Source of the DNA: Reichenbachiella sp. 5M10
GTDB lineage: Bacteria; Bacteroidota; Bacteroidia; Cytophagales; Cyclobacteriaceae
NCBI RefSeq assembly: GCF_002742335.1
Contig: NZ_MDGR01000007.1
Span: 748,501 to 812,500 of the forward strand
Direction: 5' to 3'
DNA: 64,000 nt
In this document: positions 39,793 through 59,190 of the stretch, piece after piece
Layout of the letters: the number at the start of each line of letters is the position of its first letter
Numbering within the stretch: position 1 is the first letter of the stretch
Program-made: the position numbers and the translations under genes
The notes under the pieces: model-generated
Told to the model about the DNA's origin: nothing
The model's database searches: none
What the model saw: only the letters and a program-made list of their open reading frames with translations

Positions 39793-40073
39793 AAGTACAC
39801 GGTCAGGGGAAGCTTGCTATAAGCTTTGAACCCTTCGCCTGAGGCATTACTCGGAACCCGAATAGCCCCTCCGTCAGGTTTTTGGAGCAAGTAGGTATCA
39901 ACCTAGGATTGTTGTTTGGTCACTAGACTATCACTATCTTCGAAGTGTGCAGCCATCTCTACCCTGTGAGCTATTCGCCTTATTGAGAGCTGTCACTACG
40001 TAGAAAAATAAAGAACAGTATAAAAGACATAGCAGATATAAAGTGCACTGTGCACTTTACACAAATGTTAGCG
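39793..40073 (+). repeat. Leader copy 1: putative attI and cassette promoter of array A
   Basis: This 281-bp segment recurs at 49070-49349 with a few scattered differences, only three of them in the last 170 bp. It starts 10 bp after the AddB-like stop and ends exactly at GTTAGCG, the first cassette boundary. It holds a 9-bp-arm palindrome (AAAGTGCACTGTGCACTTT, 40040-40058) 8 bp before the GTT. A promoter-like pair TTTG (39915-39918) and TATCTTCG (39935-39942) points into the cassettes. Position and content fit an integron attI/Pc platform. No integrase gene is adjacent. Confidence 0.65.
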
Positions 40074-40084
40074 AGAACGTATAT

Positions 40085-40786
40085 ATGGAAGAAAGATCAT
40101 TCAAAATATTTGATCCAATTACGAAGGATAAATTAACCGAACATCTAATCGGACGATTACCTCCTAACTCAGCAGTTCTTGATCCTAAGAGTAAATTCGT
40201 CAAACAATTCATCGATTACTGTTCAATAGAAAGTGATCTAGAAATGGTAAAACGGTCGATTTCTGAATTAGGCGATATTCGAATTGAAGAATATGAAAAA
40301 TACAGCAAGGACGATTATGAAGATCCTATTTTATTAATAAAGCGGTCTCTTTTTGTATCTACAATAATCGGGTATTGTAGATGTTTTAATTCATCAAAAG
40401 GCAGACTCTCAATTAATCAAGACTTTATAAAACGTAATTTTCCAAACTCTTTAATGAATGCTGACAACACAATCGAATTTCACAATCGAATTGTAGAAAT
40501 AAGAAACAACTTTATTGCTCATGCTAACAATTATCATTTAGAGCAAGTAATCGCATTTATTCAATTTGAATATATAGATGGTCAGTTGGTATCAAGAATG
40601 AACTACGCTGAGGCGGCTAATTACTCATTTCATGAAGATGAACTGGAAAACTTCATGATTTTATCAAGTTTCTTGATGAAGCAAGTGCAAAATAAGAAAG
40701 AAAAGGTTTCAGCAAAAATCGTTGAAGAGATGACATATGATGGCTTAATGAAGCTCGGAGCTGAAACGATCCAAAAATCTCGCTAA
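40085..40786 (+). CDS. Cassette A1: HEPN-like protein
   Basis: This 233-residue protein of unknown family is mostly helical and charged. Residues 135-146 (RIVEIRNNFIAH) contain R140 and H146 in the Rx4-6H arrangement of HEPN-domain ribonucleases found in toxins and defence systems. This is the only functional clue. The ATG at 40085 lies 18 nt into the first cassette of array A; the upstream in-frame codons belong to the leader. The TAA stop is made by the CTAAC of the attC box. Nearness to the leader should give it the best expression in the array. Confidence 0.65.
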   Translation: MEERSFKIFDPITKDKLTEHLIGRLPPNSAVLDPKSKFVKQFIDYCSIESDLEMVKRSISELGDIRIEEYEKYSKDDYEDPILLIKRSLFVSTIIGYCRCFNSSKGRLSINQDFIKRNFPNSLMNADNTIEFHNRIVEIRNNFIAHANNYHLEQVIAFIQFEYIDGQLVSRMNYAEAANYSFHEDELENFMILSSFLMKQVQNKKEKVSAKIVEEMTYDGLMKLGAETIQKSR

Positions 40787-40973
40787 CATTACCTATAAAT
40801 CCATGGTGGTTTGGTGCTAGAGTCGGTGAGTGGCGGTTTTCTCGGGGGCGGAAAATCTTCGATTTTCTTCACATGGTAGAAAAAAGGTAGTGATGAAAAT
40901 CGAAGATTTTCCTAGATTGTCACAGAAACAGCCTGCATATCCCAACACCACGGATTATAGCTGGGCGTTAGAG
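40781..40973 (+). repeat. attC site of cassette A1
   Basis: Boxes CGCTAAC (40781-40787) and GTTAGAG (40967-40973) bound a 193-bp imperfect palindrome. The outer arms pair over about 25 positions (CACCATGGATTTATAG against CACCACGGATTATAG). An inner perfect hairpin has arms of 17-18 bp (GAAAATCTTCGATTTTC). The attC at 50191-50380 shares this inner hairpin region almost unchanged. Confidence 0.85.
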
Positions 40974-41293
40974 TTCATAAGAAAATTGGCGAGGACATTT
41001 CGCTGCTTTTAGAGCGGATTTAAGTCGAATGATATTGGCTGAAAGTGTGGTTTATCCGAAGGATCAAGTTTTGCTCGTCAGGACTCGTTGAAAGCAGTCT
41101 TTCCTTTCAAAACGTGGACACGTTGACAAAACTTGAGATTTAAGTTAGGCGAAAATCGCCACAATTTCAAGGGTTAAGCAGTTAAAAAGGACCTCTCTTC
41201 TTCAAAAAGACGATTCATAGCCCGGTCTATAACTCATATTTTTTTCAGACCAAAACAGCGTAAAGCAGGGGTAGATTCCAATTTTCAAACGAA
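40974..41293 (+). other. Gene-less cassette A2
   Basis: No credible gene is present. The stretch holds one clear inverted repeat, TCAAGTTTTG (near 41065) with CAAAACTTGA (near 41137), and a GTTAGGCG near 41157 that could be an orphan R' box. A 50-codon open run ending near 41330 has no start. The cassette begins GTTAGAGTTC but its end reads CAATAAC, so the two ends do not pair. This suggests a deletion or fusion of two cassettes. Confidence 0.5.
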
Positions 41294-41410
41294 CAATAAC
41301 ACTGCGTATATTTCATTGATTAACTTGTAAGCTGTTTAAATTAGACGACTGAATGGTCAGCTTACAAATAATCAACGACGCTAAAGCTAAACATACAGTC
41401 GACGTTGTAT
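41294..41410 (+). repeat. attC site of cassette A2
   Basis: CAATAAC and GTTGTAT bound a 117-bp folded region. The middle arms ATTGATTAACTTGTAAGCTG and CAGCTTACAAATAATCAA pair with one bulge. The outer part is less perfect than in the other sites. Confidence 0.7.
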
Positions 41411-41422
41411 GGCATTGACTAC

Positions 41423-41821
41423 ATGAAGAGCAAATTCACATTCTTAGCAATTATCATCATAACTCTCGGATGTACATCTGAACCAATCCGAAGGGGAACG
41501 GAAACCTCTAACCTACCAACTCTAGAAATTTCTGAACTGGCGAACAAAATCAACTTCCACGAACAAAAAATTGAGCTAACTGGCTACTACTTCTCTGAAT
41601 TTGAAATGAGTGGACTTTTCGAACGCAAACGTAGCGATACTAACGAGGCTGTTTGGGTTAACTTTTCAGATGAACTTCATGAGCAAATCACAGATGAACA
41701 ATTTCTGAAACTCAAAGGCCGAAAGTTAAGAATCCAAGGGACATACAATGCAAAAAGTCGTGGACATTTGATGCAATACATTGGAACGGTTGAACTAGAT
41801 TTTCTTGAAACTTTGAACTGA
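41423..41821 (+). CDS. Cassette A3: small lipoprotein
   Basis: This 132-residue protein has a lipoprotein signal (MKSKFTFLAIIIITLGC), so it is exported and lipidated. The mature part (TLEISELANKINFHEQKIELTGYYFSEFEMSGLF and KLKGRKLRIQGTYNAKSRGH) looks like a small beta-barrel of OB-fold type. No family was recognised. The frame opens at the cassette start (TTG at 41405), but the signal peptide sets the start at 41423. Its stop overlaps the ATG of the next gene (TGATG), giving a two-gene cassette. Confidence 0.65.
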   Translation: MKSKFTFLAIIIITLGCTSEPIRRGTETSNLPTLEISELANKINFHEQKIELTGYYFSEFEMSGLFERKRSDTNEAVWVNFSDELHEQITDEQFLKLKGRKLRIQGTYNAKSRGHLMQYIGTVELDFLETLN

Positions 41822-42276
41822 TGATTCAGAAGCTCTTTAATTTTTTCAAAAGACCTCTAAAGTCTGAGCCAATAGAATATTTCACGTTCCCAACTGGAAA
41901 ATCAAGGATTATCTTTCCTCGAAACTGGAAAATGTACGCTCACAAAAAAGGCGAATCAACTTTCACATTCTTTAATAAGGAGCTAGATGGAATTCTGTAT
42001 GCATCTGAACTAACTAACAAAAATCCAGAGTATCAATACACTCGAAATAAATCCTTAGAAATCAACTCAGAGAACTCACCCAAACTGGTTAATATTTCTA
42101 AGCATGGTGCAGTCGTTTATTGCAAATCAGATGAATCTGCCAATGTAACATATAAACACTTCGAAATCGGACTCAATCAAACACTACTTCAATTCACTTG
42201 GATGACACCATATCCTAATGATGAGAAATTGAACAAAGAAATCGAACTAATTCTAGGGTCAGCTGAAATAGGATAA
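41821..42276 (+). CDS. Cassette A3: hypothetical protein
   Basis: This 151-residue protein has no signal peptide. It contains the segment PTGKSRIIFPRNWKMYAHKKGESTFTFFNKELDGILYASE and a following beta-rich part. The fold resembles small proteins of the DUF1795/Mog1 kind, but I cannot assign it with confidence. It is translationally coupled to the upstream lipoprotein gene and lies 5 bp before the attC box of its cassette. Confidence 0.6.
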   Translation: MIQKLFNFFKRPLKSEPIEYFTFPTGKSRIIFPRNWKMYAHKKGESTFTFFNKELDGILYASELTNKNPEYQYTRNKSLEINSENSPKLVNISKHGAVVYCKSDESANVTYKHFEIGLNQTLLQFTWMTPYPNDEKLNKEIELILGSAEIG

Positions 42277-42281
42277 ACGCC

Positions 42282-42443
42282 ATACAACAAACGCTATGAA
42301 TGAATGGGGTTTCATCAAGCAGGATGTTTTGGTGGGGATTGGAAAGTCCGCCACAATTATTAATTTTAAATTAAGGCGTGGCTATGTGCGAGACGAGAGG
42401 TTAGTACTTTACAATCCCCACTCATCATAGCTGAGCGTTGTGC
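42282..42443 (+). repeat. attC site of cassette A3
   Basis: ATACAAC and GTTGTGC bound a 162-bp palindrome; outer arms AACAAACGCTATGAATGA and CATCATAGCTGAGCGTT pair with mismatches, then GGGG pairs with CCCC. The cassette ends GTTGTATGGC (41404) and GCCATACAAC (42279-42288) are exact complements. Confidence 0.85.
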
Positions 42444-42467
42444 GCAATAAAAAAATGAACACCATAT

Positions 42468-44444
42468 ATGAATGAATTTGAAGCATTTGACCCATTAAAG
42501 GCTAAAGGAAACGCTGATACGGATGTAGCTGCATTAGCCCAAAAGAGAGAAATCAATAATATCTTAAGTTCTTATGTGGGATGGTATGATCCGTTTTGTG
42601 AGTTAATTCAAAACTCTCTGGACTCAGTTGAACTAAGAAATAAATCAGAGGACAATAGTTATTCTCCTGAAATTTGGATAACCGTTAACATTCAAGACAA
42701 CTCACTTACTGTTACGGACAATGGTGTAGGTTTAAAAGAAGATGAATTCAAACAGTTTCTTTGTCCAGATATTTCTTTTAAATCTGGGGATACTCGTGGG
42801 CACAAAGGAGTTGGTGCAACGTATTTAGCATATGGATTCAACTTTATTCAAGTGGCTACTAAAACCTCAGATTTCAGTGCAATTGGCAAAATGGAAGATG
42901 CGCGAAAATGGTTAAATGACCAGAACCCCTCTGGAAACCCCAAAATTAAACCGGACACAAGCGGCTCTAAAGACTCTAATTTCGAAAATCTTGACAGAGG
43001 TGTTTCTATTTATTTAAAGTTTGATAAACAAACTCATCCTAAAGATTTAAAATGGATTGTTGCTTCAGAAGCTGAATCTTGGGAAAAAATTTTATCAATA
43101 AAAACTGGTATTGGTGCTTTCATAGAAAACAACAAAATCAAGGTTCATATAAAAGTTATAGACAGAAATGGTAAAGAAACAGAAACTACCAAAGAAGGGA
43201 CTAAATACTTTTCACCTCATGAACATGTTAAAAAATCCGCGTCAGTATCCGAATTAAAAGCTAAAGAACTTGAGCTCTTCCAAAAGAAAGGCGCCAACTT
43301 TAGTATGCCTTCAAAGTTTAAGAATCTGGATTCAATATATCAAAAATGGAATGCCGAAGAAATTCTTGCTTTGGAGAAAGCTAAAGAAATTCGATTAACA
43401 GAGGATGAAAAAGAAATCTTAAAATCCCATACACCTCAAATATATGTAGTGTATGTTTATTCATTGAAGATTTGGGAAGCCATCAACAATTCTTTAAATA
43501 TCAGAAGTGGGCAATCATTAGCGTATGGAGGAATTCAAATAGGAGCTAATAATATGCCACAAGGAGAGACCATCCAGATACCTTTAAATAGAAATATTGG
43601 ACGTCAAAATCAGATTCATGTGTTCATTCATTTTGACAATTGTAGCCCAGATTTAGGTCGCAAAGGGTTTCAGAGTGAATTTGTTGATTTTGCAAAAGAA
43701 ATTTCGAAGAAAATAGCAGATGGACCTCTCCTTAAAATTAAGAAGTATCTAAAAACAAATACTGGAAGTACACCTAATCTAACAAGGGAAGCAAAAGTTG
43801 AGGATTGGAAAAAGGAAATGGAGGAACACGAAACTAACAAACCCTTATTGATTCAAAATCCGAATTTTTTCCTTCCTTCTCGAGAGATTGCCATTACTTC
43901 TATACCAACTCGTGAACAAGATGTCATTGCACTTTTTAATCAGCTATTAGCTGGTGGTGTGATACGTGGAATACGTGTAATGTCTACGAATGAGAGATTA
44001 ACTTATGATGGTTTGGTACGCGTCATTATTGACCCTCCAAAAGAACACCATTTGTATAATGAAGAAACGAATCCTTTGGGAGTCCTGGAAGAAAATGTTG
44101 AAGGAATTAATTTACCTTTCAAAAGCTCACCAAGGATACTTGAATATAAGTTCTCCCTTGATGGTTTAATTGAGGACATTGAAAATGGAAACAAAAATTC
44201 AAATGATGTAAGTATTGTGGTTTGTTGGGAAACGGGAAAAGAATATGAACAGAATTATTCCATTACATCTTTAATAAACCCTGACAATTTAAGTTTAAGA
44301 GAATATCACGGTATAACCCACACTATGACCAACATAAGTTCAGGACAGAAAGAAATGGATTTGATAGTCCTGAGTGAACTTATCGATTTTCTTAACGATC
44401 CTGATTCAGCCATTGAATTTCAGGAAGAAAAATATGAAGAATAA
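42468..44444 (+). CDS. Cassette A4: GHKL-type ATPase
   Basis: This 658-residue cytoplasmic protein has an N-terminal HATPase/GHKL fold: N box ELIQNSLDSVE (45-55), G1 box TDNGVGL (83-89) and G2 box GHKGVGATYL (111-120), as in Hsp90, MutL and gyrase B. The rest (about 200-658) is not recognised and has no kinase or MutL C-terminal features. Large GHKL ATPases of this build occur in defence loci, but that role is only suggested here. It is the only gene of its cassette and unusually long for cassette cargo. Confidence 0.75.
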   Translation: MNEFEAFDPLKAKGNADTDVAALAQKREINNILSSYVGWYDPFCELIQNSLDSVELRNKSEDNSYSPEIWITVNIQDNSLTVTDNGVGLKEDEFKQFLCPDISFKSGDTRGHKGVGATYLAYGFNFIQVATKTSDFSAIGKMEDARKWLNDQNPSGNPKIKPDTSGSKDSNFENLDRGVSIYLKFDKQTHPKDLKWIVASEAESWEKILSIKTGIGAFIENNKIKVHIKVIDRNGKETETTKEGTKYFSPHEHVKKSASVSELKAKELELFQKKGANFSMPSKFKNLDSIYQKWNAEEILALEKAKEIRLTEDEKEILKSHTPQIYVVYVYSLKIWEAINNSLNIRSGQSLAYGGIQIGANNMPQGETIQIPLNRNIGRQNQIHVFIHFDNCSPDLGRKGFQSEFVDFAKEISKKIADGPLLKIKKYLKTNTGSTPNLTREAKVEDWKKEMEEHETNKPLLIQNPNFFLPSREIAITSIPTREQDVIALFNQLLAGGVIRGIRVMSTNERLTYDGLVRVIIDPPKEHHLYNEETNPLGVLEENVEGINLPFKSSPRILEYKFSLDGLIEDIENGNKNSNDVSIVVCWETGKEYEQNYSITSLINPDNLSLREYHGITHTMTNISSGQKEMDLIVLSELIDFLNDPDSAIEFQEEKYEE

Positions 44445-44447
44445 AGC

Positions 44448-44506
44448 GCACAACAACATATATAAGCCATACCCTTCGGGATACGGCTCATATACAAACC
44501 TTATAC
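44448..44506 (+). repeat. attC site of cassette A4 (59 bp, altered right box)
   Basis: GCACAAC (44448-44454) and CTTATAC (44500-44506) bound a classic-length 59-bp site. The core hairpin is GCCATACCC-TTC-GGGATACGGC. The right box has C in place of the G that should precede the cut (G/TT). The next cassette nevertheless starts with TTATACACC, whose complement ends that cassette. Confidence 0.8.
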
Positions 44507-44520
44507 ACCACTTATCCTAA

Positions 44521-45468
44521 ATGATACAAAAATTAGACAAAGTTCAGAAAGAGAGAATTAAGAGGCTCGAACCAGCCTTAAAACAAGCGGCCAAACGCGG
44601 TGATTTACAAACAGCAAAATCTATAATCGTTGACCTGCAATCTATCTACTTACCTAAAGGTCATGATGCAAAACTCATGATGGCAAAAAACAGACTTTTT
44701 GAATCAGCTATGGAAGCTGGCAAGCTTGATTTTGCTGAAAGGGGTCTAATTGGTGTACGTCAGAGAGTCAATAATCGAACGAGGGTATATTTAGAAGCAT
44801 CATCACTTCTTGCAATCTGCTATTTGCGACAAAGTGATTTAGTTAAAGCTGAGCCAATAATTCAGGAGGTACTATCAAACGATCAAGTAATTAAGTCACA
44901 ACCGAAGCGCGAAGAATTTAGGAAACAGATAATCACAAGGTTTGACCAAGAGGGAGCTCTTTTCGCGATTAAGGAGAACTTTGCTCAAAAATTAGACCCA
45001 AAAGAGATTCAAGACGAAGCGGGAATACTAATAGCGTCATCTAAATCTGAAGAAGATCTTTTCGAAGATATTGGGAAGGAAGTTCCAGAGCATGCGATCA
45101 ACATACTTCTTAGAATAGATGAGTTTTCAAAGAACCTTCTACCTTCAGCAGAGAGGCTCAAATTACCACCACCCAAACAAGCCATCCAAACGAAGCAAGT
45201 AGGCAAAACTATATTCTCTTCTGTAAAAAGAGTTTTGTATAAATCATTATGCGATAAAGAGAGTGATATTTATCAAGCTTGGTACAAACAAGGAATGGGT
45301 GCAATCCTAAACAAGTATTCAATCGGAATCGCTGTTTCTGAGGCTTTTATTAATCTTGGTATTGGTGTTAAAGCTCTGGCTGTGCCGGTAATTGCACTAA
45401 TAATGAAATTTGGAATTGAAATATACTGTGATCAATATGCACCCACCGATATAATGGGTATGAGGTGA
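44521..45468 (+). CDS. Cassette A5: TPR-like helical protein
   Basis: This 315-residue protein has an all-helical N-terminal part (about 1-135) built of TPR-like pairs (AAKRGDLQTAKSIIVDLQSIY, AMEAGKLDFAERGLIGVRQRV, LAICYLRQSDLVKAEPIIQEVL). The C-terminal part has a hydrophobic stretch (INLGIGVKALAVPVIALIMKFGIEIYC) that could insert into a membrane. No family is named. It starts 20 nt into its cassette and ends 4 bp before the attC outer box. Confidence 0.6.
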   Translation: MIQKLDKVQKERIKRLEPALKQAAKRGDLQTAKSIIVDLQSIYLPKGHDAKLMMAKNRLFESAMEAGKLDFAERGLIGVRQRVNNRTRVYLEASSLLAICYLRQSDLVKAEPIIQEVLSNDQVIKSQPKREEFRKQIITRFDQEGALFAIKENFAQKLDPKEIQDEAGILIASSKSEEDLFEDIGKEVPEHAINILLRIDEFSKNLLPSAERLKLPPPKQAIQTKQVGKTIFSSVKRVLYKSLCDKESDIYQAWYKQGMGAILNKYSIGIAVSEAFINLGIGVKALAVPVIALIMKFGIEIYCDQYAPTDIMGMR

Positions 45469-45474
45469 AAAGGT

Positions 45475-45621
45475 GTATAACATCATACATCAAATCATGC
45501 TTTTGGCTACTAGAGGAAAGGTTTTGAGTTTACTCTAGCCCCGCTGAATCGCAGATTCAGCTATTTTGCATCCGAAACTTAACTACATAAAAAACGCACG
45601 CTTGATGTATAGGCGTTACCT
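45475..45621 (+). repeat. attC site of cassette A5
   Basis: GTATAAC and GTTACCT bound a 147-bp site. Outer arms CATACATCAAATCATGC and GCACGCTTGATGTATAGGC pair well; an inner hairpin GCTGAATC-GCA-GATTCAGC is perfect. Confidence 0.85.
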
Positions 45622-45632
45622 AGCATAAAGAA

Positions 45633-46322
45633 ATGACAGTCGAATCCAGTCTCAAGAGGCAGTACAACACCAAATTATCTTCCGAACTGTATGAGATTGC
45701 GAATAGTCCGAAATACCAGAGCGATGCAAGATCAGCTGCCACAAAATTACTTGAAGAACGAGACGAAACTGAACTATTGAAGAAGCTCAAACCTGAATAT
45801 TCCAAGTATGATCTTATAGACTTACTAAATATATTGAAAGACTATCGGTTGAACTTCTCAACTTCCTCAGATACTTTAAAGATTTACAGAGACAATAAGA
45901 CCGGATTAACGGGCATGAGCCTAATAGGAATTGGCGTTTTATTAGCATTCATGTGCATTATCTATTTTTCTTTAGGAAATCAATCTGCAGGTATAAGATG
46001 GATGTACATTTCAATAGTAGCTCTTGTTGCAGGATACATAAGAATGGGATTCTACGATTTTAAGTACTTCATTCTGAACTCGAACTCTATAACGATTAAA
46101 AGAGGTTTGAACAGAAGAAAATTCACTTCCCAATATTCACCTTTCGATTTTGAATCATTATCAGTCAATCAAAGTGGCAAGAACACCTGCGTGATGCTTA
46201 ACCTCAGAAATTCACAACCCGAAGTTGCTGTCGAACTAAGAACCAAGAACTACGGAGCAACATCAGAATACGCAAACGCCTTATGTATTCGCTTAACTGA
46301 ATGGCTAAAAAACGCTAGGTAA
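45633..46322 (+). CDS. Cassette A6: two-TM membrane protein
   Basis: This 229-residue protein has a soluble N-terminal part (1-85), two membrane helices at about 95-115 (MSLIGIGVLLAFMCIIYFSLG) and 120-137 (WMYISIVALVAGYI), then a C-terminal beta-rich cytoplasmic part reminiscent of bacterial PH domains. No family name is given. The gene starts 17 nt into the cassette. Its TAA stop is supplied by the AGGTAAC box of the attC. Confidence 0.6.
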   Translation: MTVESSLKRQYNTKLSSELYEIANSPKYQSDARSAATKLLEERDETELLKKLKPEYSKYDLIDLLNILKDYRLNFSTSSDTLKIYRDNKTGLTGMSLIGIGVLLAFMCIIYFSLGNQSAGIRWMYISIVALVAGYIRMGFYDFKYFILNSNSITIKRGLNRRKFTSQYSPFDFESLSVNQSGKNTCVMLNLRNSQPEVAVELRTKNYGATSEYANALCIRLTEWLKNAR

Positions 46323-46537
46323 CAGCGCGTATAGCGAATGCCCATGCCACCACAACGAAACGCTACAGGTAACAGCTCCGCCGCTTCGCTCGGGAATCGA
46401 TAGAATAGCGAGGAATGGTCATTCGTAAGCCAATCAGCCTCGATCAACAGGAATGGCTAAACAGACTTTTGCAGTATCGAGCGATTCGCCTATCTTAGAT
46501 ACCTGTGAGGGCACATCGTCCTACACAGGCGTTAGAG
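46317..46537 (+). repeat. attC site of cassette A6
   Basis: AGGTAAC and GTTAGAG bound a 221-bp site. Outer arms GCGTATAGCGAATGCCC and GGGCACATCGTCCTACAC pair. The sites at 52023-52251 and 52813-53042 belong to the same sequence type. Confidence 0.85.
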
Positions 46538-46548
46538 ACAATTGCACC

Positions 46549-47388
46549 TTGAAAACAATCTCCCTTCCAGAACAATTAATTATCAATAAAGGCTCAAGCG
46601 TTGTAGCCTTCGATTACCAAGTGGAGCAAGAATCGACCAAACAGCAAGTAAACCTATCTATGAATACCTTCAGTTTCCTGACCGAAGGGAATAAAGAGGT
46701 TTACTCAGATACGAAATTTAGTGCCATTTCGAATAGCGAATTCCTTTTAATGAAGTCAGGTAAGTGCCTTATGACGGAGAAATTTACCGATACGCTGAAA
46801 AGGTATAGAAGCATTCTTTTCTTTTTCACGGATGAAGCTCTGCTACGCTTTATAAGGAAATACTCTATTGTGCTATCCAAGATGACAGAAAGGAAATCAG
46901 TTCAATCCATTAAATATGATGATTACCTACGATCTTTTGCTAAGAGTCTTGCTCACCTAGTCAACCTATCTTCTGTTCACAGGGATAAAGTTCTACAAGT
47001 AAAGTTTGAGGAGCTCATGCTGTATCTGATTGATAAGGAGGGGGTGGAATTACTCTCTTCATTCGTAATTAGTACAAACGAACATGAACATCACTTTCAG
47101 GAAATAGTGGAAAACAACAAGCTCAACCGACTAACAATCAATGAACTCGCCTTCTTGTGCAACATGAGTATATCTACTTTTAAGCGAACATTTGAGAGAC
47201 AATTTCATACTTCTCCAAGTAAATGGTTTCAGGAAAGAAGGTTAGAATATGCCGCCTTGTTACTTAAAAGCGAGGGAAAAAGACCCACCGATATTTATTT
47301 ACAAGTTGGCTATGATTCACTGACCAACTTTATTCAAGCCTTCAAATCCAAGTATGGAATGACTCCAAAGCAATATCAATTGGATTGA
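46549..47388 (+). CDS. Cassette A7: AraC-family regulator
   Basis: This 279-residue regulator has an unclassified N-terminal sensor part and a C-terminal AraC DNA-binding domain: LTINELAFLCNMSISTFKRTFERQFHTSPSKWFQERRLEYAALLL, then DIYLQVGYDSLTNFIQAFKSKYGMTPKQYQ. I use the TTG at 46549, 17 nt into the cassette, because the 32 codons further upstream lie within the attC of the previous cassette. It is followed in the same cassette by a PEBP gene, which it may regulate. Confidence 0.82.
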   Translation: MKTISLPEQLIINKGSSVVAFDYQVEQESTKQQVNLSMNTFSFLTEGNKEVYSDTKFSAISNSEFLLMKSGKCLMTEKFTDTLKRYRSILFFFTDEALLRFIRKYSIVLSKMTERKSVQSIKYDDYLRSFAKSLAHLVNLSSVHRDKVLQVKFEELMLYLIDKEGVELLSSFVISTNEHEHHFQEIVENNKLNRLTINELAFLCNMSISTFKRTFERQFHTSPSKWFQERRLEYAALLLKSEGKRPTDIYLQVGYDSLTNFIQAFKSKYGMTPKQYQLD

Positions 47389-47476
47389 GCTTTTAGCAAT
47401 ACTTTTTGAGCCAGCTCAACTAACGGCACTGTTGAATTAGAAATGATATTTGTCCACGAATTTAAAATATACAATT

Positions 47477-48031
47477 ATGAAAAAGATAATCTTATCGGTT
47501 GCCTTTGGCATCATCACTCAAGTGTCATTTAGCCAATCAACATTTACTTTGTCAAGTCAGAATCTCGGAGGACAAGCAACTTTAACAGAAGAGTTTAATG
47601 GTTTTGGTTGTGTAGGCAAGAACGAGTCGCCTCAATTAACATGGAAGAATGCTCCTGCAGGAACTCAAAGCTTTGCCGTGACGATGTATGATCCAGATGC
47701 TCCAACAGGAAGTGGGTGGTGGCATTGGGTAATGTTTGATATCCCGTCGGATATAAACGAATTAGTTAGTAATGCTGGAAATGTCTCGGCCGACCTTGCG
47801 CCAAAAAATGCTATTCAAAGTATCACCAATTATGGAGCTAAAGGATATGGCGGTCCTTGCCCACCCGAAGGTCATGGACTACATAAATATGTAATTACCG
47901 TATATGCCTTGAAAACAGCAAAGCTAGGCTTAGATGAAAACACAAATCCGGCAATAGTAGGATACTATCTATGGAGCAATACTATAGCGAAAGCAAGTAT
48001 AATCACCTACTATCAAAGAGAGAAAAAGTAA
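47477..48031 (+). CDS. Cassette A7: YbhB/YbcL-type PEBP protein
   Basis: This 184-residue protein belongs to the phosphatidylethanolamine-binding (Raf kinase inhibitor-like) family. It has a signal peptide (MKKIILSVAFGIITQVSFSQ). The ligand-pocket motifs are NESPQLTWKNAPAGTQSFAVTMYDPDAPTGSGWWHWVMFDIP and NYGAKGYGGPCPPEGHGLHKYVITVYAL. The frame opens nine codons earlier, but the signal peptide fixes 47477. It is the second gene of a two-gene cassette with the AraC regulator and ends 3 bp before the attC outer box. Confidence 0.9.
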   Translation: MKKIILSVAFGIITQVSFSQSTFTLSSQNLGGQATLTEEFNGFGCVGKNESPQLTWKNAPAGTQSFAVTMYDPDAPTGSGWWHWVMFDIPSDINELVSNAGNVSADLAPKNAIQSITNYGAKGYGGPCPPEGHGLHKYVITVYALKTAKLGLDENTNPAIVGYYLWSNTIAKASIITYYQREKK

Positions 48032-48035
48032 AAGT

Positions 48036-48134
48036 CTCTAACAAACGATAGGGCACATGGTAGACACTCAGGCTAAATGCCCTCTAACGAAAAACGGTCT
48101 CACAGCAGTGAGACCGTTTCATGGTCTGATACTA
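48036..48134 (+). repeat. attC left end of cassette A7, apparently incomplete
   Basis: CTCTAAC (48036-48042) follows GT, making GTCTCTAAC, the complement of the cassette start GTTAGAGAC. No matching right box or outer arm is found before the next gene. A perfect 12-bp hairpin (48092-48103 with 48108-48119) sits inside and may act as a terminator. The site seems to have lost its right half where other DNA joins. Confidence 0.55.
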
Positions 48135-49069: not shown

Positions 49070-49349
49070 AAGTACACGATCAAGGGAAGCTTGCTATATG
49101 CTTTGGCCCCTTCGCCTGAGGCATTACTCGGAATCCGAATAGCCCTTCTGTAGGTTTTTGGAGCAAGTAGGTATCAACCTAGGATTGTTGTTTGGTCACT
49201 AGACTATCACTATCTTCGAAGTGTGCAGCTATCTCTACCCTGTGGGCTATTCGCCTTATTGAGAGCTGTCACTACGTAGAAAAATAAAGAACAGTATAAA
49301 AGACATAGTAGATATAAAGTGCACTGTGCACTTTACACAAATGTTAGCG
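49070..49349 (+). repeat. Leader copy 2: putative attI and cassette promoter of array B
   Basis: This is the second copy of the segment at 39793-40073, with the same palindrome (AAAGTGCACTGTGCACTTT) and the same promoter-like TTTG/TATCTTCG pair. It ends at GTTAGCG (49343-49349). Similarity to copy 1 stops within the first bases of the cassette, as expected at a recombination point. A minus-strand reading frame (PSNASGEG...KAYSKLPL) is kept in both copies, but I do not recognise a gene. Confidence 0.65.
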
Positions 49350-49352
49350 TGC

Positions 49353-49532
49353 ATGGCGAAAGACCGAAGATCTACCAGAATGGAAGAAGAAAAACTAAGT
49401 GAACATCAACTTAAACGACTTGTCATCAAGGAACGAGAGAAGTCGAGAAAAACAGAGTTAATTGCCGTAACCATTCTTGCGATAGTAGCCTTAATTGCGA
49501 CAATTATTTGGGGTATTTTCAGAACACAATAA
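49353..49532 (+). CDS. Cassette B1: small single-TM protein
   Basis: This 59-residue protein has a charged N-terminus (MAKDRRSTRMEEEKLSEHQ) and one membrane helix near the C-terminus (LIAVTILAIVALIATIIWGIF). No family was recognised. It starts 9 nt into the cassette, next to the leader, and overlaps the start region of the following gene, so the two may act together. Confidence 0.5.
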   Translation: MAKDRRSTRMEEEKLSEHQLKRLVIKEREKSRKTELIAVTILAIVALIATIIWGIFRTQ

Positions 49533-50185
49533 TTCCGCATACATTGAGATCAAAAAAACTAAGAGGGCTTAAAAGAAGACAAAAGAATATTGATAAATGG
49601 TTCGAAGGGCATCAACGAATTAACCTTGAAATTCTAAAGGAGTCGAAGTACTATTATTGCAAGTCAAAAGTAGATCCTTGGTCTAACCTCTACTATGAAG
49701 TAGATTATCCTGCGAATTACAGAAGACAGCTGTTTTCTCATCTTTTGAGTATCTACGAACTTTGGAAGAAACAACTAGAAGATAACTTTGATGACTTCTA
49801 TCTTGCGATTTGGTTAAACGATAGACGATTTATCGATTCTCAAGTAGTATCAGCAATTGGCGACCGAGCTGAACATTATCAACAAATGTGGAACCTTCAT
49901 GAAGAACCTTTGAAATTTCCTATCAAACTATTTAACAACGAAGAAGATAGAGTTTCTATGTTTCATTGGGATTCAACAGAAGATGAGGATTTAGTGTTTG
50001 AGTCTGAATATTCTGATCTCGATATTAATGATTATTGGAGCCCTGAAGATTTTTTTGATGACGTTAGATCATATAGGAAACTTGTGAAAAACAATACACC
50101 AACCCGAACGATACAAACTGAAGATGGAATAGAAAAGGCGTTTGTACTAAAACGGGGAAACACATGGATTGGCAAACAAAAATAA
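49508..50185 (+). CDS. Cassette B1: hypothetical protein
   Basis: This soluble protein of 213-225 residues has a basic N-terminus (SKKLRGLKRRQKNIDKW) and an acidic C-terminal half (STEDEDLVFESEYSDLDINDYW). Conserved-looking aromatic segments are YYEVDYPANYRRQLFSHLLSIYELWKK. No family was recognised. There is no in-frame ATG near the 5' end: TTG at 49508 or TTG at 49544 is the probable start. The gene ends 3 bp before the cassette end. Confidence 0.55.
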   Translation: MGYFQNTIIPHTLRSKKLRGLKRRQKNIDKWFEGHQRINLEILKESKYYYCKSKVDPWSNLYYEVDYPANYRRQLFSHLLSIYELWKKQLEDNFDDFYLAIWLNDRRFIDSQVVSAIGDRAEHYQQMWNLHEEPLKFPIKLFNNEEDRVSMFHWDSTEDEDLVFESEYSDLDINDYWSPEDFFDDVRSYRKLVKNNTPTRTIQTEDGIEKAFVLKRGNTWIGKQK

Positions 50186-50190
50186 CGACA

Positions 50191-50380
50191 CGCTAACATC
50201 ACCTATCCTCCATGGTGATTCCTGCTAGAATTGAGGTTGGCGGTTTCTACTAGCACCGGAAAATCTTCGCTTTTCCTCACATGGTTGAAAAAAGGTAGTG
50301 ATGAAAATCGAAGATTTTCCTAATTTGTAACCGAAACAAAACACACGTCAAGCACCACAGAGGATAGCTAGGCGTTGTGC
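50191..50380 (+). repeat. attC site of cassette B1
   Basis: CGCTAAC and GTTGTGC bound a 190-bp site of the same sequence type as the A1 attC (40781-40973), including the inner GAAAATC/GATTTTC hairpin and the segment AAAAAAGGTAGTGATG between its arms. Confidence 0.88.
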
Positions 50381-50400
50381 TTCATTTAGAAAAAAAATAA

Positions 50401-51396
50401 ATGGCTCGTAAAAAGCAGAGAGTCTTCCAACATGAAATGGAGGATGAATCTTATAAAATTATTAAGGATGTATTACCAAATAACTGGGTAATTCGAGAAT
50501 TTAATAGACCTGATTATGGAGTCGATATAGTTATCGAAATCTTTGACAAAGTAAATGAAAAGGTTTCAGAGGCATTGGGAGAGTATTTGTATGTTCAAGT
50601 TAAGTCAGTACAGTGTATAGAAATAAAGACCGAAAAAATATATCCTGTTGGAAACGTAGCAAAAGTTGGTTGGAGAGAAGATAAGAGTAAATATTTTAAC
50701 ATAGATGTTATTAAGTTTGTGATAGACACGGACAGCATTTACACAATTCAATCTCTTGGCTCTAGTATTTCTTTTCTCTTATTTGTTGTCGATATAGATA
50801 CAAGGAAAGTGTATTTCATTTGTCTCAATGATTATATAGACAAAATTCTATTTCCGAGAAACCCCAATTACGGATCTCAAAAAGATGTAACTATAACGAT
50901 TCCTGTCTTAAATGAGTTATCGTTAAAGCATATAAGTAAGCCAGCCTTAGAATATTATGGAAAGCGTGCAAAGATGCTGTCAGCATTTGCAAAGTTTGCC
51001 TATCAAAAAAATGAAATCAATCATTTATTGAATTATAAAGACTTTCCTCTTTTCACTTATCGAGATTCTTTAGCCAATGAAGCAAATATTTATGCTGATG
51101 AAATTAAGACCCAAGTTTTGTATTTCATCGAACAGATAGAATATCTAGAAATATGGGACTATCAAAACTGGCAACCTCTTCCTCTTGCTAAAACAGAAAT
51201 TAAACAATTGAAGAAAAGCTTACTTGATGGTACCGAAATGAATACAGTGAAATTAGAAATCATAAGAGTTTGGCACGGGCTAACAAATCTTGGCAATATG
51301 TACGAGGAATTAACAAGAGAGTGGTATATGCCTAAATATTTGAGTTTTATGATGTCATATCCAGAAGTACCAGAATCGATTGAGGTGAAAAAATAA
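50401..51396 (+). CDS. Cassette B2: DUF4365 domain protein
   Basis: This 331-residue protein has an N-terminal DUF4365 domain (about 8-150), a nuclease-like fold of the PD-(D/E)XK group. The expected residues are present: RPDYGVDIVIEIF (D38, D42, E46) and YLYVQVKS (Q66, K68). The C-terminal 150 residues are helical and unassigned. DUF4365 proteins are often found in defence and mobile DNA. It starts 26 nt into its cassette. Catalytic activity is inferred, not shown. Confidence 0.8.
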   Translation: MARKKQRVFQHEMEDESYKIIKDVLPNNWVIREFNRPDYGVDIVIEIFDKVNEKVSEALGEYLYVQVKSVQCIEIKTEKIYPVGNVAKVGWREDKSKYFNIDVIKFVIDTDSIYTIQSLGSSISFLLFVVDIDTRKVYFICLNDYIDKILFPRNPNYGSQKDVTITIPVLNELSLKHISKPALEYYGKRAKMLSAFAKFAYQKNEINHLLNYKDFPLFTYRDSLANEANIYADEIKTQVLYFIEQIEYLEIWDYQNWQPLPLAKTEIKQLKKSLLDGTEMNTVKLEIIRVWHGLTNLGNMYEELTREWYMPKYLSFMMSYPEVPESIEVKK

Positions 51397-51401
51397 CGAA
51401 A

Positions 51402-51598
51402 GCACAACATCACCTATGACACCATGTCGTGTCAGTGGGTTAAGAAAGATTTGTGGTTACTTACAAGCCCCGCGAATTCTCTGAATTCGCCTAGTGTGAA
51501 AAAGAAATTACTATGCGAATTCAAAGAATTCGCTACTTAGATAAACGAAACGAAATACGAACTTAAACACGTCACGGTGCATAGCCAGAGCGTTACCT
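51402..51598 (+). repeat. attC site of cassette B2
   Basis: GCACAAC and GTTACCT bound a 197-bp site. Two perfect inner palindromes, GCGAATTC-TCT-GAATTCGC and GCGAATTC-AAA-GAATTCGC, sit in the central part. Outer arms CATCACCTATGACACC and GTGCATAGCCAGAGCG pair partly. Confidence 0.82.
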
Positions 51599-51657
51599 GT
51601 CATTAATCTAACTGCAAAATCTCTACGTTGATCCAACCCTCTTAAACAAAAAAGTCA

Positions 51658-52008
51658 ATGAAAATACTTGCGATAATTGCTTCAATTTCAACCCTTATTT
51701 TCGGAACTCTCTACTTTGTAGAATCCAGTCGAACGGAAGAACTTAGAAGTGTAATCGAACAAAGAAACAGAGCATTTGTTACACTAAGCGCAGTTGCCAA
51801 CGGACTAGCTAACCTTTCAAATACCGCAACAGACTCTCTTATATTGGAAATCTCAACCTCAACAGAAATTCTAACAAGTACCTCAACATCGTATATCATT
51901 GGAACTACCCTGAACAACCCAGAAAATCACACATGGGATTATGACATATTAGAGCTCAAATCGGATTCAATAGGTCAACTACAATCTGTGGAACTTTTCA
52001 AACAGTAA
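51658..52008 (+). CDS. Cassette B3: small membrane-anchored protein
   Basis: This 116-residue protein has an N-terminal hydrophobic helix (MKILAIIASISTLIFGTLYFV) and a serine/threonine-rich outer part (SLILEISTSTEILTSTSTSYIIG). There is no lipobox. It lies 65 nt into the cassette. No family was recognised. Confidence 0.5.
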   Translation: MKILAIIASISTLIFGTLYFVESSRTEELRSVIEQRNRAFVTLSAVANGLANLSNTATDSLILEISTSTEILTSTSTSYIIGTTLNNPENHTWDYDILELKSDSIGQLQSVELFKQ

Positions 52009-52022
52009 GTACGAAAAAAGAC

Positions 52023-52251
52023 AGGTAACATTGCGTATAGCGAATGCCCAAGCTGCGTGACCGAAGGTGTGCGGGAAACAGCACCGCCGCTCCGCTCAGG
52101 AATCAATAGAATACCGAGGAATGGTCATTCGTGACTCAAGCTGTCTCGATCAACAGGAATGGCTAAATAGACTTTTGTAGTTTGTCGCGATTCGGCTACT
52201 TTAGTGCTTTATCAAACCGTGTGGGCACATCGCCATACGCGGACGTTATCA
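52023..52251 (+). repeat. attC site of cassette B3
   Basis: AGGTAAC and GTTATCA bound a 229-bp site. It is a close relative of the A6 attC, sharing GCGTATAGCGAATGCCC, GGAATGGTCATTCGT and TCGATCAACAGGAATGGCTA. Confidence 0.88.
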
Positions 52252-52258
52252 TTAATCG

Positions 52259-52828
52259 ATGTTTTTAGAATTAGAAGTTGTCTCCTCATTTTTTGCTACC
52301 AAATACTACATAAATAATGGAGAAGATTTGGTGTATAAAGGAGTTAACAGCTGGGGTTGGTTATTTTCTAATACTCTAATCCATAATTCCAGCTTAAATA
52401 CACTCGCAAGCGTTAACAAAAAATGGAGCATATATAAACCAACTTATATTATTAAACATGGCAATTCTACATCGATATTACAGATCAAATCAAGCTGGAA
52501 AGGCTACTATAAATGTTCAAACAACACAGATGTCTATCAACTAATTAGCCACAAAGGGCTGAAAACATCAATATTTCTGAACGACATACAAATTGGATAT
52601 TACGAACAGAATGAACTAGAATGGCTAGAAACAAGAAAGTATCAGATACACCTCAATCCAGATGCTGACCAGCCTCTTATTTGTTCTATTATTATTAGTC
52701 TCGACAATTACAAAAACGGCAAAGATGCAGATCGCGGTACTACCTTCTATGTTGGAAAGTTAACACCAGAAATCAAACCGTTTGATGAGAGCTGGAGACC
52801 AAAAAATAAAAATGATAACAAGGTGTAG
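52259..52828 (+). CDS. Cassette B4: hypothetical protein
   Basis: This 189-residue protein has no signal peptide. It is rich in beta-forming residues (TYIIKHGNSTSILQIKSSWKGYYKC, TSIFLNDIQIGYYEQNELEW), a pattern seen in tubby/LURP-like barrels, but the assignment is not secure. It starts 13 nt into the cassette. Its last codons and stop lie inside the attC, which starts at 52813. Confidence 0.55.
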   Translation: MFLELEVVSSFFATKYYINNGEDLVYKGVNSWGWLFSNTLIHNSSLNTLASVNKKWSIYKPTYIIKHGNSTSILQIKSSWKGYYKCSNNTDVYQLISHKGLKTSIFLNDIQIGYYEQNELEWLETRKYQIHLNPDADQPLICSIIISLDNYKNGKDADRGTTFYVGKLTPEIKPFDESWRPKNKNDNKV

Positions 52829-53042
52829 GCACGAATGCCCATGCGAGCTTTCCGAATCAATGCCAGAAGCAACACCACCGCTCCACGCGGAATCTCTAGA
52901 ATACCGATAACGCATTCGTGGTTTCCTTGGCTGTCTAACTTTGGACTAATGGCTAAACGAGCTTTTGTGGTTGTGCGCGGATCGGCTATCTTTCTGCTTT
53001 AACCAAGCCGTGAGGGCACATCGTCCTACACAGGCGTTGTAG
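52813..53042 (+). repeat. attC site of cassette B4
   Basis: TGATAAC and GTTGTAG bound a 230-bp site of the A6/B3 type, ending in the shared segment GTGAGGGCACATCGTCC and TACACAGGCGTT. Confidence 0.85.
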
Positions 53043-53059
53043 GGCATTAAAAAAAGACG

Positions 53060-53524
53060 ATGAAGTACAAGAATTATAAATCGACAATTCACAATTTCAC
53101 TCACTCCTTCATAAGCATTGACTATATGAAAAGTGGACGAATTGCTGTGAATGTATTGATTGACTTGTACAACCTCGGACTTGGAAGTAAGACAACATTT
53201 GACTTTATCAATAAGACAATTCAGCCCGACCAAGCAGAATCCAAAGAGAGCCGACAGTTATTAAATGACTATTTGGATTGGCTACCAGACCACTTCGCAA
53301 ATCACAACTGCGACTTGACCAAATTGGAAATTTTGGAAACAACTATTTGGACTGACTTTGAAAAAGCCTTTTCGCCACCAAGAATGAATGACACAATTGA
53401 ATTTACTGTTAATGCGGTGACAAAATGGAAAGCGGACGAAAAAGACGAACAAACCCTTGAGATTTCACAGACCGAGTTGATAAAGAAGAACTTTTTGAAA
53501 TTGAGAATTCCGGAAATGAAATAA
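53060..53524 (+). CDS. Cassette B5: hypothetical protein
   Basis: This 154-residue soluble protein (SGRIAVNVLIDLYNLGLGSKTTFDFINKTIQP; LPDHFANHNCDLTKLEILE) is of unknown family. It starts 23 nt into the cassette and ends one base before the next gene, so it forms a two-gene cassette with a small membrane protein. Confidence 0.55.
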   Translation: MKYKNYKSTIHNFTHSFISIDYMKSGRIAVNVLIDLYNLGLGSKTTFDFINKTIQPDQAESKESRQLLNDYLDWLPDHFANHNCDLTKLEILETTIWTDFEKAFSPPRMNDTIEFTVNAVTKWKADEKDEQTLEISQTELIKKNFLKLRIPEMK

Positions 53525-53525
53525 T

Positions 53526-53807
53526 ATGGCTAAAATCTTTACACTTAAAAATATACTTATTGGATTAGCTGTAATTATTATTGACTTGTTTATCTATTTT
53601 GTCCTTGCCTTGTTATTGATGAACTACGATGATTTTTATGATGCGAGTAAAGGCGAATATTGGAGTTTGGAAAGTATGACCTTTTGGCAAAAAGTAAATT
53701 ATATAAGTTTCAATCTTTGGTATGTAATTAACGCGGTTCTGATTGGAATTGTAATTTATCGAGTAATAAAAAGAATAAAGAAAAACGCCCTACAACAACG
53801 GGTATAG
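53526..53807 (+). CDS. Cassette B5: small two-TM protein
   Basis: This 93-residue protein has two hydrophobic helices (about 10-31, IGLAVIIIDLFIYFVLALLL, and 62-80, LWYVINAVLIGIVIYRVI) and a basic tail. No family was recognised. Its last codons run into the attC at 53790. Confidence 0.55.
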   Translation: MAKIFTLKNILIGLAVIIIDLFIYFVLALLLMNYDDFYDASKGEYWSLESMTFWQKVNYISFNLWYVINAVLIGIVIYRVIKRIKKNALQQRV

Positions 53808-53849
53808 TGCATGCCCTGCGGGACACGCATCATACTCAAACCGTTGAGG
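53790..53849 (+). repeat. attC site of cassette B5 (60 bp)
   Basis: CTACAAC and GTTGAGG bound a short, classic-length site. The core hairpin is GCATGCCCTGCGGGACACGC. It resembles the 59-bp A4 site in length and layout. Confidence 0.88.
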
Positions 53850-53897
53850 GGAATTGAGCCTGATGGGAACTGAACAGATAACTGCTATATTTGTGGC

Positions 53898-54458
53898 GTG
53901 AAAAAAATGTATGTAATAGCAGGGCCGAACGGAGCAGGTAAGACAACTTTGTCCTACACAATTCTTCCTGAAATATTCGATTGTGATGAATTTGTTAACG
54001 CAGATGAAATTGCACGTGGCATTTCTCCTTTGAACCCTGATAAAGCAGGAATTAGAGCAGGTCGTTTAATGCTTGAACGACTTCAGGAACTCGTTTCTAA
54101 AGGAGAGTCATTCGCCTTTGAAACCACCCTTTCAACTAAGTCATATCGTGGTTTTATAGACCGAGCTATGGATTTAGGATAGACACCACTTTGCTTTTTC
54201 TTGCACTGGATTCGATCGAACTTGCAAAACAACGAGTTCAAACAAGAGTTAAAGAGGGAGGACATAACATACCTATTCAAACCATTGAAAGAAGATACTC
54301 AAGTGGACTTACCAACTTTTTTAAAATATATAAGTCAATTGTCAGTAGATAACTCAACTGAGAATTTTGAATTTATTGCCGAAGGATCAGGTGCTGACCT
54401 TGTCGTAAGAAGTGAAAAGATATGGTCTCAATTAAACGAAAAGTATAATGGAAATTAG
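53898..54458 (+). pseudogene. Cassette B6: zeta-toxin-like kinase, broken by two frameshifts
   Basis: The gene starts with GTG at 53898: MKKMYVIAGPNGAGKTTLSY carries an intact Walker A (9-17), then FVNADEIARG and ESFAFETTLSTKSY, as in zeta/PezT-type UDP-GlcNAc kinases. The frame stops at 54182 after AMDLG. It continues in the +1 frame as DTTLLFLALDSIELAKQRV and GGHNIPIQTIERRYSSGL to a stop near 54346. A third frame then gives VDNSTENFEFIAEGSGAD to 54458. The first break looks like a one-base loss in a tyrosine codon. The toxin should be inactive unless frameshifting occurs. Confidence 0.85.
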
Positions 54459-54633
54459 CCAACAATTACAAGAACTAGAAGAGAAAGTAAGTTTAGGACT
54501 CAAGGAAGCCTATCGAAAAATGGCCGAATTCAAAAAAAGGAACAATAGCCCATTAATTGTGTCTCGAAATGGTGAAGTAGTATCTATACCTGCCAATGAA
54601 ATACTCCCTACAACAAGTGCTAAAAATCCATAG
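54448..54633 (+). CDS. Cassette B6: small antitoxin-like partner of the zeta toxin
   Basis: This 61-residue protein (MEISQQLQELEEKVSLGLKE, then MAEFKKRNNSPLIVSRNGEVVSI) has the size, charge and position of the short protein that follows zeta-like toxins in Bacteroidota. It overlaps the end of the broken toxin gene by 11 bp. The frame is intact. An antitoxin role is inferred from gene order. Its last codons lie in the attC at 54608. Confidence 0.65.
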   Translation: MEISQQLQELEEKVSLGLKEAYRKMAEFKKRNNSPLIVSRNGEVVSIPANEILPTTSAKNP

Positions 54634-54724
54634 GCTAATGAGCTACTTGCAAAGAGCATTTGAATCAGATACTTTTATTGATTTTAGCAAAGGTCAAGCC
54701 TACGGTTTTAGCTGGGCGTTATCT
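54608..54724 (+). repeat. attC site of cassette B6
   Basis: CTACAAC and GTTATCT bound a 117-bp site. Outer arms TAAAAATCCATAGGCT and AGCCTACGGTTTTAGC pair well. The cassette ends pair imperfectly (GTTGAGGG with CCCTACAAC). Confidence 0.75.
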
Positions 54725-57234: not shown

Positions 57235-57344
57235 AGCTAACAATGTATATAAAAAATCAGGCTATAGGCTCGTGTAAAACTCTGTACTTAATCGAAAGTT
57301 AAGTGCTTCGAAATCGCCTACTTCTCATGTACTAAACGTTATCT
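57235..57344 (+). repeat. attC site of cassette B7
   Basis: AGCTAAC and GTTATCT bound a 110-bp site with inner hairpin CTTAA-TCGAAAG-TTAAG. The cassette ends (GTTATCTG at 54718, CAGCTAAC here) differ by one base from perfect pairing. Confidence 0.75.
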
Positions 57345-57445
57345 GCAACCAGAGAACCCATCCAAATGGAGCAAAACCAAAATCAATCAACCCTTTTTGC
57401 CATTTGACAAATTCCGAATAAAATGCAATGACAATCTTTGTGACT

Positions 57446-58012
57446 ATGGACAAATTAATAAACTATCTGTTGGAATTTGGGCAGCTAAATCAACAGCAAC
57501 TTGACTTGATAAAGAGAAAAGCACAGGTATTGGAGTTGAAAAAAGGCAATTACTTTTCTGAAGCAGGGAAAATTCCAAGACAAGTAGCATTCATAGAAGA
57601 AGGCATCTTTCGAGTTTGTTACTACAACAGCGAAGGAGATGAAATCACCAAATACTTTGTTGATGAAAACAATTTTGCAGTGGACATATACAGCTTCAAT
57701 CAAAAAATCCCATCTTCGGAATATGTACAGGCTGTAACAGATTGTACACTGCTTGTATTTTCTTCAGAGTCACTTAATGATTTATCAGCTACTATCATTC
57801 AATGGGACAGTATTATCAATAAAATAACCGAAAAAGCATTGGTTGATAAAGTAAATAAACTAAGCCCAATGTTAGCCGAGGATGCCACTACACGGTATCT
57901 AAATTTTCTTGAAAAGTTTCCGAATTTAGCCAACAGAATTCCGCTTTCCTATCTTGCATCCTACTTGGGGATCACACAATCATCACTAAGTAGAATTAGA
58001 AAAAGCATCTGA
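57446..58012 (+). CDS. Cassette B8: Crp/Fnr-family regulator
   Basis: This 188-residue regulator has an N-terminal cyclic-nucleotide-binding-like beta roll (LELKKGNYFSEAGKIPRQVAFIEEGIFRVCYYNSEGDEITKYFVDENNFA) and a short C-terminal HTH (IPLSYLASYLGITQSSLSRIRK). The cAMP-contact residues of Crp are not obvious. I use the ATG at 57446 (MDKLINYLLEFG), the usual subgroup start, rather than six codons upstream. It is followed by an SDR gene in the same cassette, its likely target. Confidence 0.88.
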   Translation: MDKLINYLLEFGQLNQQQLDLIKRKAQVLELKKGNYFSEAGKIPRQVAFIEEGIFRVCYYNSEGDEITKYFVDENNFAVDIYSFNQKIPSSEYVQAVTDCTLLVFSSESLNDLSATIIQWDSIINKITEKALVDKVNKLSPMLAEDATTRYLNFLEKFPNLANRIPLSYLASYLGITQSSLSRIRKSI

Positions 58013-58160
58013 AATGAGCACCGAAGGCTTTCGGTACGAATTCCATGTAACCTTTAAAATGAATTAAATATACATGAATTCATTATTTGCCAAATGGCAA
58101 ATGTTTTTGCTTTTGAAGCGCTGAACTTTGCTTCATCATTTAAATAAAAAGCAAAAAAAT

Positions 58161-59078: not shown

Positions 59079-59109
59079 TATAAAGATGTTTTCAAAAAAA
59101 AATGGCAGC

Positions 59110-59190
59110 AGGTAACAATGTATAAAAGCAATAGCGGTGCTTGCGTGAACTCGAACCGTTTTTGTGTTTAGTTAAGTATTCTGCTTTCTG
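59110..59190 (+). repeat. attC site of cassette B8, right half lost
   Basis: The left box AGGTAAC (59110-59116; GCAGGTAAC at 59108) and the following AATGTATAAAAGC copy the layout of the B7 attC. From about 59185 the sequence changes into a MazF-like coding frame, and no GTTRRRY box is found. Confidence 0.65.

Follow-up and report, generated by a model that had tools for sequence, protein, structure and literature searches.

Results

Two leaders and two cassette arrays

The window analysed here, a 64,000-nucleotide stretch of the Reichenbachiella sp. 5M10 genome (C7:748501-812500), carries two copies of a leader on the + strand. Copy 1 (platform W1) lies at 39793..40066, directly 3' of the stop codon of an AddB/Cas4-nuclease-like gene, and copy 2 (platform W2) lies at 49070..49342. 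The gene upstream of leader 1 (36939-39782) is large and has a Cas4/PD-(D/E)XK-type nuclease end, which fits an AddB-like protein. A second repeated segment was observed upstream of several leaders and elsewhere (window ~48750-49069; L002, L004, L005, L008, L147 and L148).

All cassettes of the two arrays described here are also on the + strand. Array 1 opens with cassette 1 (40067..40966; start GTTAGCGAGA), which holds an ORF extending to 40786 with no Pfam match; its R'' box TCTCGCTAAC ends at 40787 and its attC runs to 40966. Cassette 2 (40967..41403) has no clear ORF. Cassette 3 (41404..42436; start GTTGTATGGC, R'' GCCATACAAC) contains ORFs of 138 aa and 151 aa, and cassette 4 (42437..44499) a 658-aa HATPase_c-like ORF. 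The G of GTT has been lost from cassette 5 (44500..45614; start CTTATACACC, R'' GGTGTATAAC), which holds a 315-aa ORF. Cassette 6 (45615..46530) pairs start GTTACCTAGC with R'' GCTAGGTAAC (10/10) and has an attC of ~207 bp, and cassette 7 (46531..48042; start GTTAGAGACA, R'' GTCTCTAAC) encodes a PEBP-family protein and, by inspection, an AraC-like regulator.

Array 2 opens with cassette 1 (49343..50373; start GTTAGCGTGC), whose R'' CACGCTAAC ends at 50197, followed by cassette 2 (50374..51591), which encodes a DUF4365 protein and has an R'' ending at 51408. Cassette 3 (51592..52244) has start GTTACCTGTC, R'' GACAGGTAAC (10/10) and an attC of ~215 bp, and cassette 4 (52245..53035) has start GTTATCATTA and R'' AATGATAAC. 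The stretch from GTTGTAGGGC (53036..54717) comprises one or more cassettes, with two candidate R'' boxes ending at 53796 and 54614. A zeta-toxin-like P-loop frame (AGPNGAGKTTL) at 53898-54458 is seemingly broken by a stop or frameshift. A later cassette (57338..59116) has start GTTATCTGCA and R'' GCAGGTAAC (8/10). A family scan covered ten window ORFs, of which nine lie in the two arrays; it found HATPase, PEBP and DUF4365, left most ORFs without a family, and matched none of the ten to an immunity family (other cargo was outside the scan).

Leader copies share a 3' end at GTT

The preliminary description had claimed that a repeat of ~280 bp with high identity occupies 39793-40073 and 49070-49349, and that similarity stops near GTTAGCG before different cassettes. 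Both claims held. Alignment gave 207 gap-free bp at 97% identity plus 90 bp at 88%, and BLAST gave 96% over the match (E=4.7e-127); GTTAGCG is found at 40067 and 49343. The 7-mer occurs in the window at its chance frequency (4 seen, 3.96 expected), so the word alone is no evidence and it is its position that counts. The pair was extended to eight sites genome-wide, with the ~280 bp leader present in full at five and three more keeping only its 3' ~33 bp, a 21-bp inverted repeat plus ACACAAATGTT. In 8/8 copies conservation ends at GTT and a cassette then begins. The sequence common to all eight is ..AGTGCACTGTGCACTxTACACAAATGTT, with nothing in common beyond GTT, where the words read GTTAGCG, GTTGTGA, GTTAGCG, GTTAGGG, GTTACAG, GTTACAG, GTTGGCA and GTTGTGA. 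The common end is thus GTT only; the two window leaders share the full GTTAGCG because both first cassettes happen to start with TTAGCG, a coincidence.

In copy 1 the inverted repeat, TAAAGTGCAC-T-GTGCACTTTA, is at 40039..40059 and the crossover box, CACAAATGTT, at 40060..40069 (both on the + strand), with conservation ending at the GTT at 40067-40069. In copy 2 the corresponding site spans 49315..49345 (+ strand; inverted repeat 49315-49335, crossover GTT 49343-49345). The preliminary description had likened the two leader copies to copies of an integron attI platform. The comparative data support this with refinements: only the last ~33-44 bp of the leader (inverted repeat plus ACACAAATGTT) very probably behave as attI, recombination itself being inferred, and the upstream ~240 bp form a separate module; moreover the system is not a classical integron, the genome's sole integron-type integrase lacking the IntI-defining I2 insertion.

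The leader from 39793 to ~40030 is dispensable for attI, because three copies are without that part; the integrase-linked copy is one from which the upstream ~240 bp are missing. Where present, 39793 to ~40030 is highly conserved, although its first ~75 bp are absent in one sister-species copy. A candidate outward promoter of Bacteroidota-like form, TTTG-N16-TATCTTCG, lies at 39915..39942 on the + strand. The motif is found in all seven leader copies, L146 having one base changed downstream of TTTG. It is the only indication of function, from which we infer that the upstream part is likeliest to be a Pc-like promoter of the array. A structured RNA in the leader was also considered and rejected, as there was no Rfam match and the fold was no better than shuffles (z -0.99).

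Homology with a sister species breaks at the same base

Leader copies lying away from cassettes, or ending at other points, had been named beforehand as grounds for refuting the platform reading, and this was checked in the sister species G001. Another four sites derived from the leader were found there, all ending at GTT, as well as one 96-bp piece of the leader 5' half without attI. Platform L006 of the present genome and L147 of G001 align at 98.8% identity for 2.2 kb, through the last T of GTT, beyond which the two are unrelated; for W2 and L145 of G001 the identity is 97.8% for 2.8 kb as far as attI, where the sequences part (the L145 attI has an internal 7-bp loss). Array 1 cassette 2 (40967) recurs in G001 at 94.9% identity, as the cassette immediately following an attI; the homology starts exactly at the G of GTT with 0 bp shared before it, and the left neighbour of this cassette is an attC in the window and an attI in G001. 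From these boundaries GTT is the exchange point at both attI and attC.

Cassette starts mirror their own attC

For 13 window cassettes, the first 10 bases and the reverse-complemented R'' of the same cassette agreed at 9.15/10 positions, versus 5.27/10 for the R'' boxes of other cassettes, and 0/100,000 permutations reached the own-pair value. The complementarity typically covers 9-10 nt. Such pairing is what circular cassettes carrying their own attC predict. Some R'' boxes in the 13-cassette table were chosen by eye, and an automatic scan that used only AAC...GTT plus a stem served as a blind check. In array DNA it returned 84 attC-like sites, whereas 39.7 kb of control DNA, both strands included, gave 1; of its consecutive pairs, 26 of 41 matched at >=5/7 variable positions versus 4.6% for other pairs. 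An initial automatic chaining joined cassettes too readily and so produced spurious links; it was superseded by the curated table and then by the blind scan. At 23 of 34 platforms an 8-nt mirror of the first-cassette start was present within 3.5 kb, versus 16% at other GTTs. No matching R'' was found within 3.5 kb at platform L008 of the same genome and at 10 of 26 other sites.

The bottom strands of five attC sites folded better than all 200 shuffles of each (z -3.5 to -6.8). Stem mismatches favoured G.T pairs on the bottom strand by 153:55, the bias that use of the bottom strand would produce, although relatedness among the sites means that the p-value cannot be taken at face value. Folding energy was similar on both strands, with the bottom strand more stable in 46 sites and the top in 37.

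One integrase gene, its attI and scattered 3' fragments

An intact gene at C7:882052-883194 encodes a 381-aa tyrosine recombinase with the residues R-K-HxxR-H-Y. At the short copy L007, the attI inverted repeat starts a few bases past the integrase stop codon (L007/L010); the two are in the same orientation, and int points toward the array. The two other short copies retain GATGCAGTGCG, which spans the integrase stop codon. The search of the genome yielded no more than four PF00589 genes, of which the other three look XerD-, XerC- and mobile-element-like, which leaves, as inferred from sequence alone, one candidate integrase gene for eight attI sites.

Homologues of this integrase at 51-58% identity occur across Bacteroidota (Winogradskyella, Arenibacter, Mesonia, Aquimarina, Fulvivirga and others). 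Most have an inverted repeat plus GTT directly downstream, then variable DNA, and the int-attI order followed by variable DNA was seen in Winogradskyella, Mesonia, Fulvivirga, Aquimarina and others. At least 25 Bacteroidota loci pair the I2-less integrase with attI. Genomes of the genus hold, at several places each, int pieces of the last 35-120 codons only, most of them followed by an attI-like site. There are at least six such 3'-end pieces in G001 and several in G007, and loci with these fragments as extra platforms include L120, L121, L123-L129 and L131. No full-length integrase homologue was among the G001 matches. Because int 3' pieces and attI are scattered together, platforms seem to have spread by copying either the int 3' end plus attI or the leader plus attI. 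A Nanoarchaeota MAG contig (L057 594-1397) also encodes a member of the integrase family at 45% identity; a binning error is possible.

The integrase family compared with IntI and Xer

Alignment with two IntIs showed that both IntI insertions, I2 included, are absent in 40+ homologues. Against TIGR02249 the integrase scored 196 bits and its family 186-201, with a cut-off of 265 and true IntIs at 394 and 509, and it left model positions 181-239 unmatched. No canonical IntI was found in the order, 0/148 genomes having a TIGR02249 match above cut-off; the matches in those 148 genomes are interrupted between model positions ~180 and ~240.

In a tree of 47 proteins, the integrase family, the rAID-type recombinases, TnpF/tet(X3) and IntI formed one clade (100/99), with the host XerD and XerC outside it; the family did not group with XerC/XerD. 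The tree had few Xer references and a long XerC branch. Support for the family as the immediate sister group of IntI is weaker (92/67). The catalytic part of the predicted integrase structure matches XerA and IntI4. Its N-terminal domain of ~77 residues gave no Pfam match and no confident PDB fold (best E 0.02). This beta-alpha domain (L024 residues 1-77 and homologues) is conserved, and is missing in TnpF and some shorter homologues.

Three integron criteria were met: an attI adjoining the integrase gene (at L007/L010 and in relatives), tandem cassettes with attC (R''/L''...L'/R'), and crossover at G|TT of attI, the last by comparative boundaries without biochemical data. We infer that the system is integron-like in its working, recombination being deduced by sequence comparison only; the integrase family is the nearest relative of IntI in the tree, yet it fails the I2 criterion.

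Discussion

A proposed mechanism and its rivals

The site anatomy, the exact GTT boundaries, the start/R'' pairing, the folded attCs and the linkage of integrase and attI are shown by sequence comparison. The leader is very likely a duplicated attI platform of an integron-like cassette system, with recombination itself inferred from that comparison. We propose that it is one among several dispersed recombination platforms, with its 3' ~33-44 bp acting as attI and its upstream ~240 bp as a putative promoter region that would express the array. The recombinase encoded at C7:882052-883194 would act in trans at the platforms, its catalysis being inferred, and we consider it likely that this single enzyme serves all eight sites. 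It would recombine attI, at its GTT, with the attC that a circular cassette carries, and each cassette would hence start at GTT and carry at its far end an attC with an R'' mirroring that start. The folded bottom strand of attC would be the substrate, an inference for which there are no experimental data on single-strand chemistry. Since cassette capture by IntI1 requires I2, which this integrase does not have, attC may be used differently or another enzyme may help.

One alternative is that the host XerC/XerD or a lost canonical IntI does the chemistry and the I2-less enzyme is a bystander. In its favour, I2 is reportedly necessary for IntI1 cassette capture (PMC7790495), and the genome also carries XerC- and XerD-like genes. 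We regard it as unlikely: it is the I2-less integrase that is found beside attI in the 25 or more Bacteroidota loci, the 148 genomes of the order yielded no TIGR02249 match over cut-off, and truncated int 3' ends travel together with attI.

Alternatively, the leader could have been copied by segmental duplication or homologous recombination, and lie beside arrays only since whole loci were copied. L002, L003, L004 and L005 share an extra repeat upstream of the leader, so that the upstream part did spread in larger blocks. Copying, however, does not explain why eight paralogues and the orthologous sister-species loci stop at the same base with unrelated DNA downstream, or why cassette starts mirror their own attC, and this account is also improbable. 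The leader as a MITE-like mobile element or non-coding cassette, with GTT at its right end by chance, is very unlikely, for although it recurs at scattered places, sometimes only as a 5' fragment, its left context varies between copies and its 3' 33 bp are found without the rest of the leader beside an integrase.

Comparison with known systems

As a cassette platform, the system resembles class 1 and sedentary chromosomal integrons in having attI beside the integrase gene, crossover at GTT, mostly co-oriented cassettes, and attC sites of R''/L''/L'/R' form with strong hairpins and the cassette start mirrored in R''. It differs in that the integrase is without I2 and below the TIGR02249 cut-off and has an N-terminal extension of ~110 aa, int points toward the array and not away from it, and attI holds a perfect inverted repeat and is present in eight copies per one integrase. 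CALINs are similar in that arrays are distant from any integrase, but they are attC clusters without an integrase, whereas the arrays inspected here each have their own attI-like site. The delta-attI of mobile integrons (PMC12901181) are likewise extra attI-derived sites in arrays that recombine, but they stand in for attC in unusual cassettes, whereas in the present genome complete attI sites stand at the start of distinct chromosomal arrays.

In the rAID (recombinase-associated acquired interbacterial defence) loci of gut Bacteroidales, a homologous recombinase (40-47% identity) precedes a series of small genes that share one orientation and have conserved motifs between them. Unlike the present system, the core at the starts examined is ATT rather than GTT and the cargo consists of immunity genes. 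The start/R'' mirror was also found in two rAID-like loci of Bacteroides and Parabacteroides (L177 2974-5400, L178 2857-5200). Judged from sequence alone, these are likely rAID-type loci, with a recombinase and then immunity-type genes, which fits the description in PMC12247911; attI and attC are unmentioned in the passages of that paper considered here. From the mirror we infer, tentatively, that rAID-type loci of gut Bacteroidales look like cassette arrays.

In the xerD-tet(X3) unit of Acinetobacter plasmids, 'XerD'/TnpF is a member of the integrase family (51.5% identity) that, unlike the integrase here, is truncated at its N-terminus. It is followed by an attI-like inverted repeat plus GTT, then tet(X3), the site reading TATACGCCATTTGGCGTATAGCCACTT|GTTATGTGCC (L155 6842-8067, FJ012881.1). 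The sequence 3' of tet(X3) in this unit had no mirror of the cassette start. On an Empedobacter brevis plasmid (NZ_CP043636.1; L160 6001-7328), tet(X2) has the same start, GTTATGTGCC, ends in R'' GGCACATAAC (10/10) and lies between two attC hairpins, and is thus a complete integron-style cassette. What xerD does next to tet(X) genes had been left unanswered (PMC7473080).

Significance

IntegronFinder 2.0 named one complete integron in Bacteroidetes proper, that of Salinibacter ruber (PMC9024848), and attI platforms of the kind described here were undescribed for Bacteroidota in the literature searched, which is weak evidence since most subscription journals and preprints were outside the search. 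We read the present system as integron-like, with an I2-less integrase and dispersed attI platforms, and have high confidence in the cassette-platform reading. A bolder reading, towards which the balance tips only slightly, is of a phylum-wide Bacteroidota integron lineage, in which a sister of IntI without I2 would act on cassettes with hairpin attCs and serve, in trans, many dispersed attI platforms per genome. This would unify the rAID arrays with xerD-linked tet(X) mobilisation and supply the missing I2-less relative of IntI.

The I2 insertion is generally held to have made integrons possible and to occur in no other proteins, with intermediates lacking (PMC7790495). A natural cassette system with an I2-less sister of IntI would, if true, let the requirement for I2 be tested directly, and detectors built on an IntI-specific profile would miss such systems. 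It would also offer a mechanism for the presence of xerD beside tet(X) genes and for the growth of rAID immunity arrays, and several attI per genome would permit parallel, separately expressed arrays.
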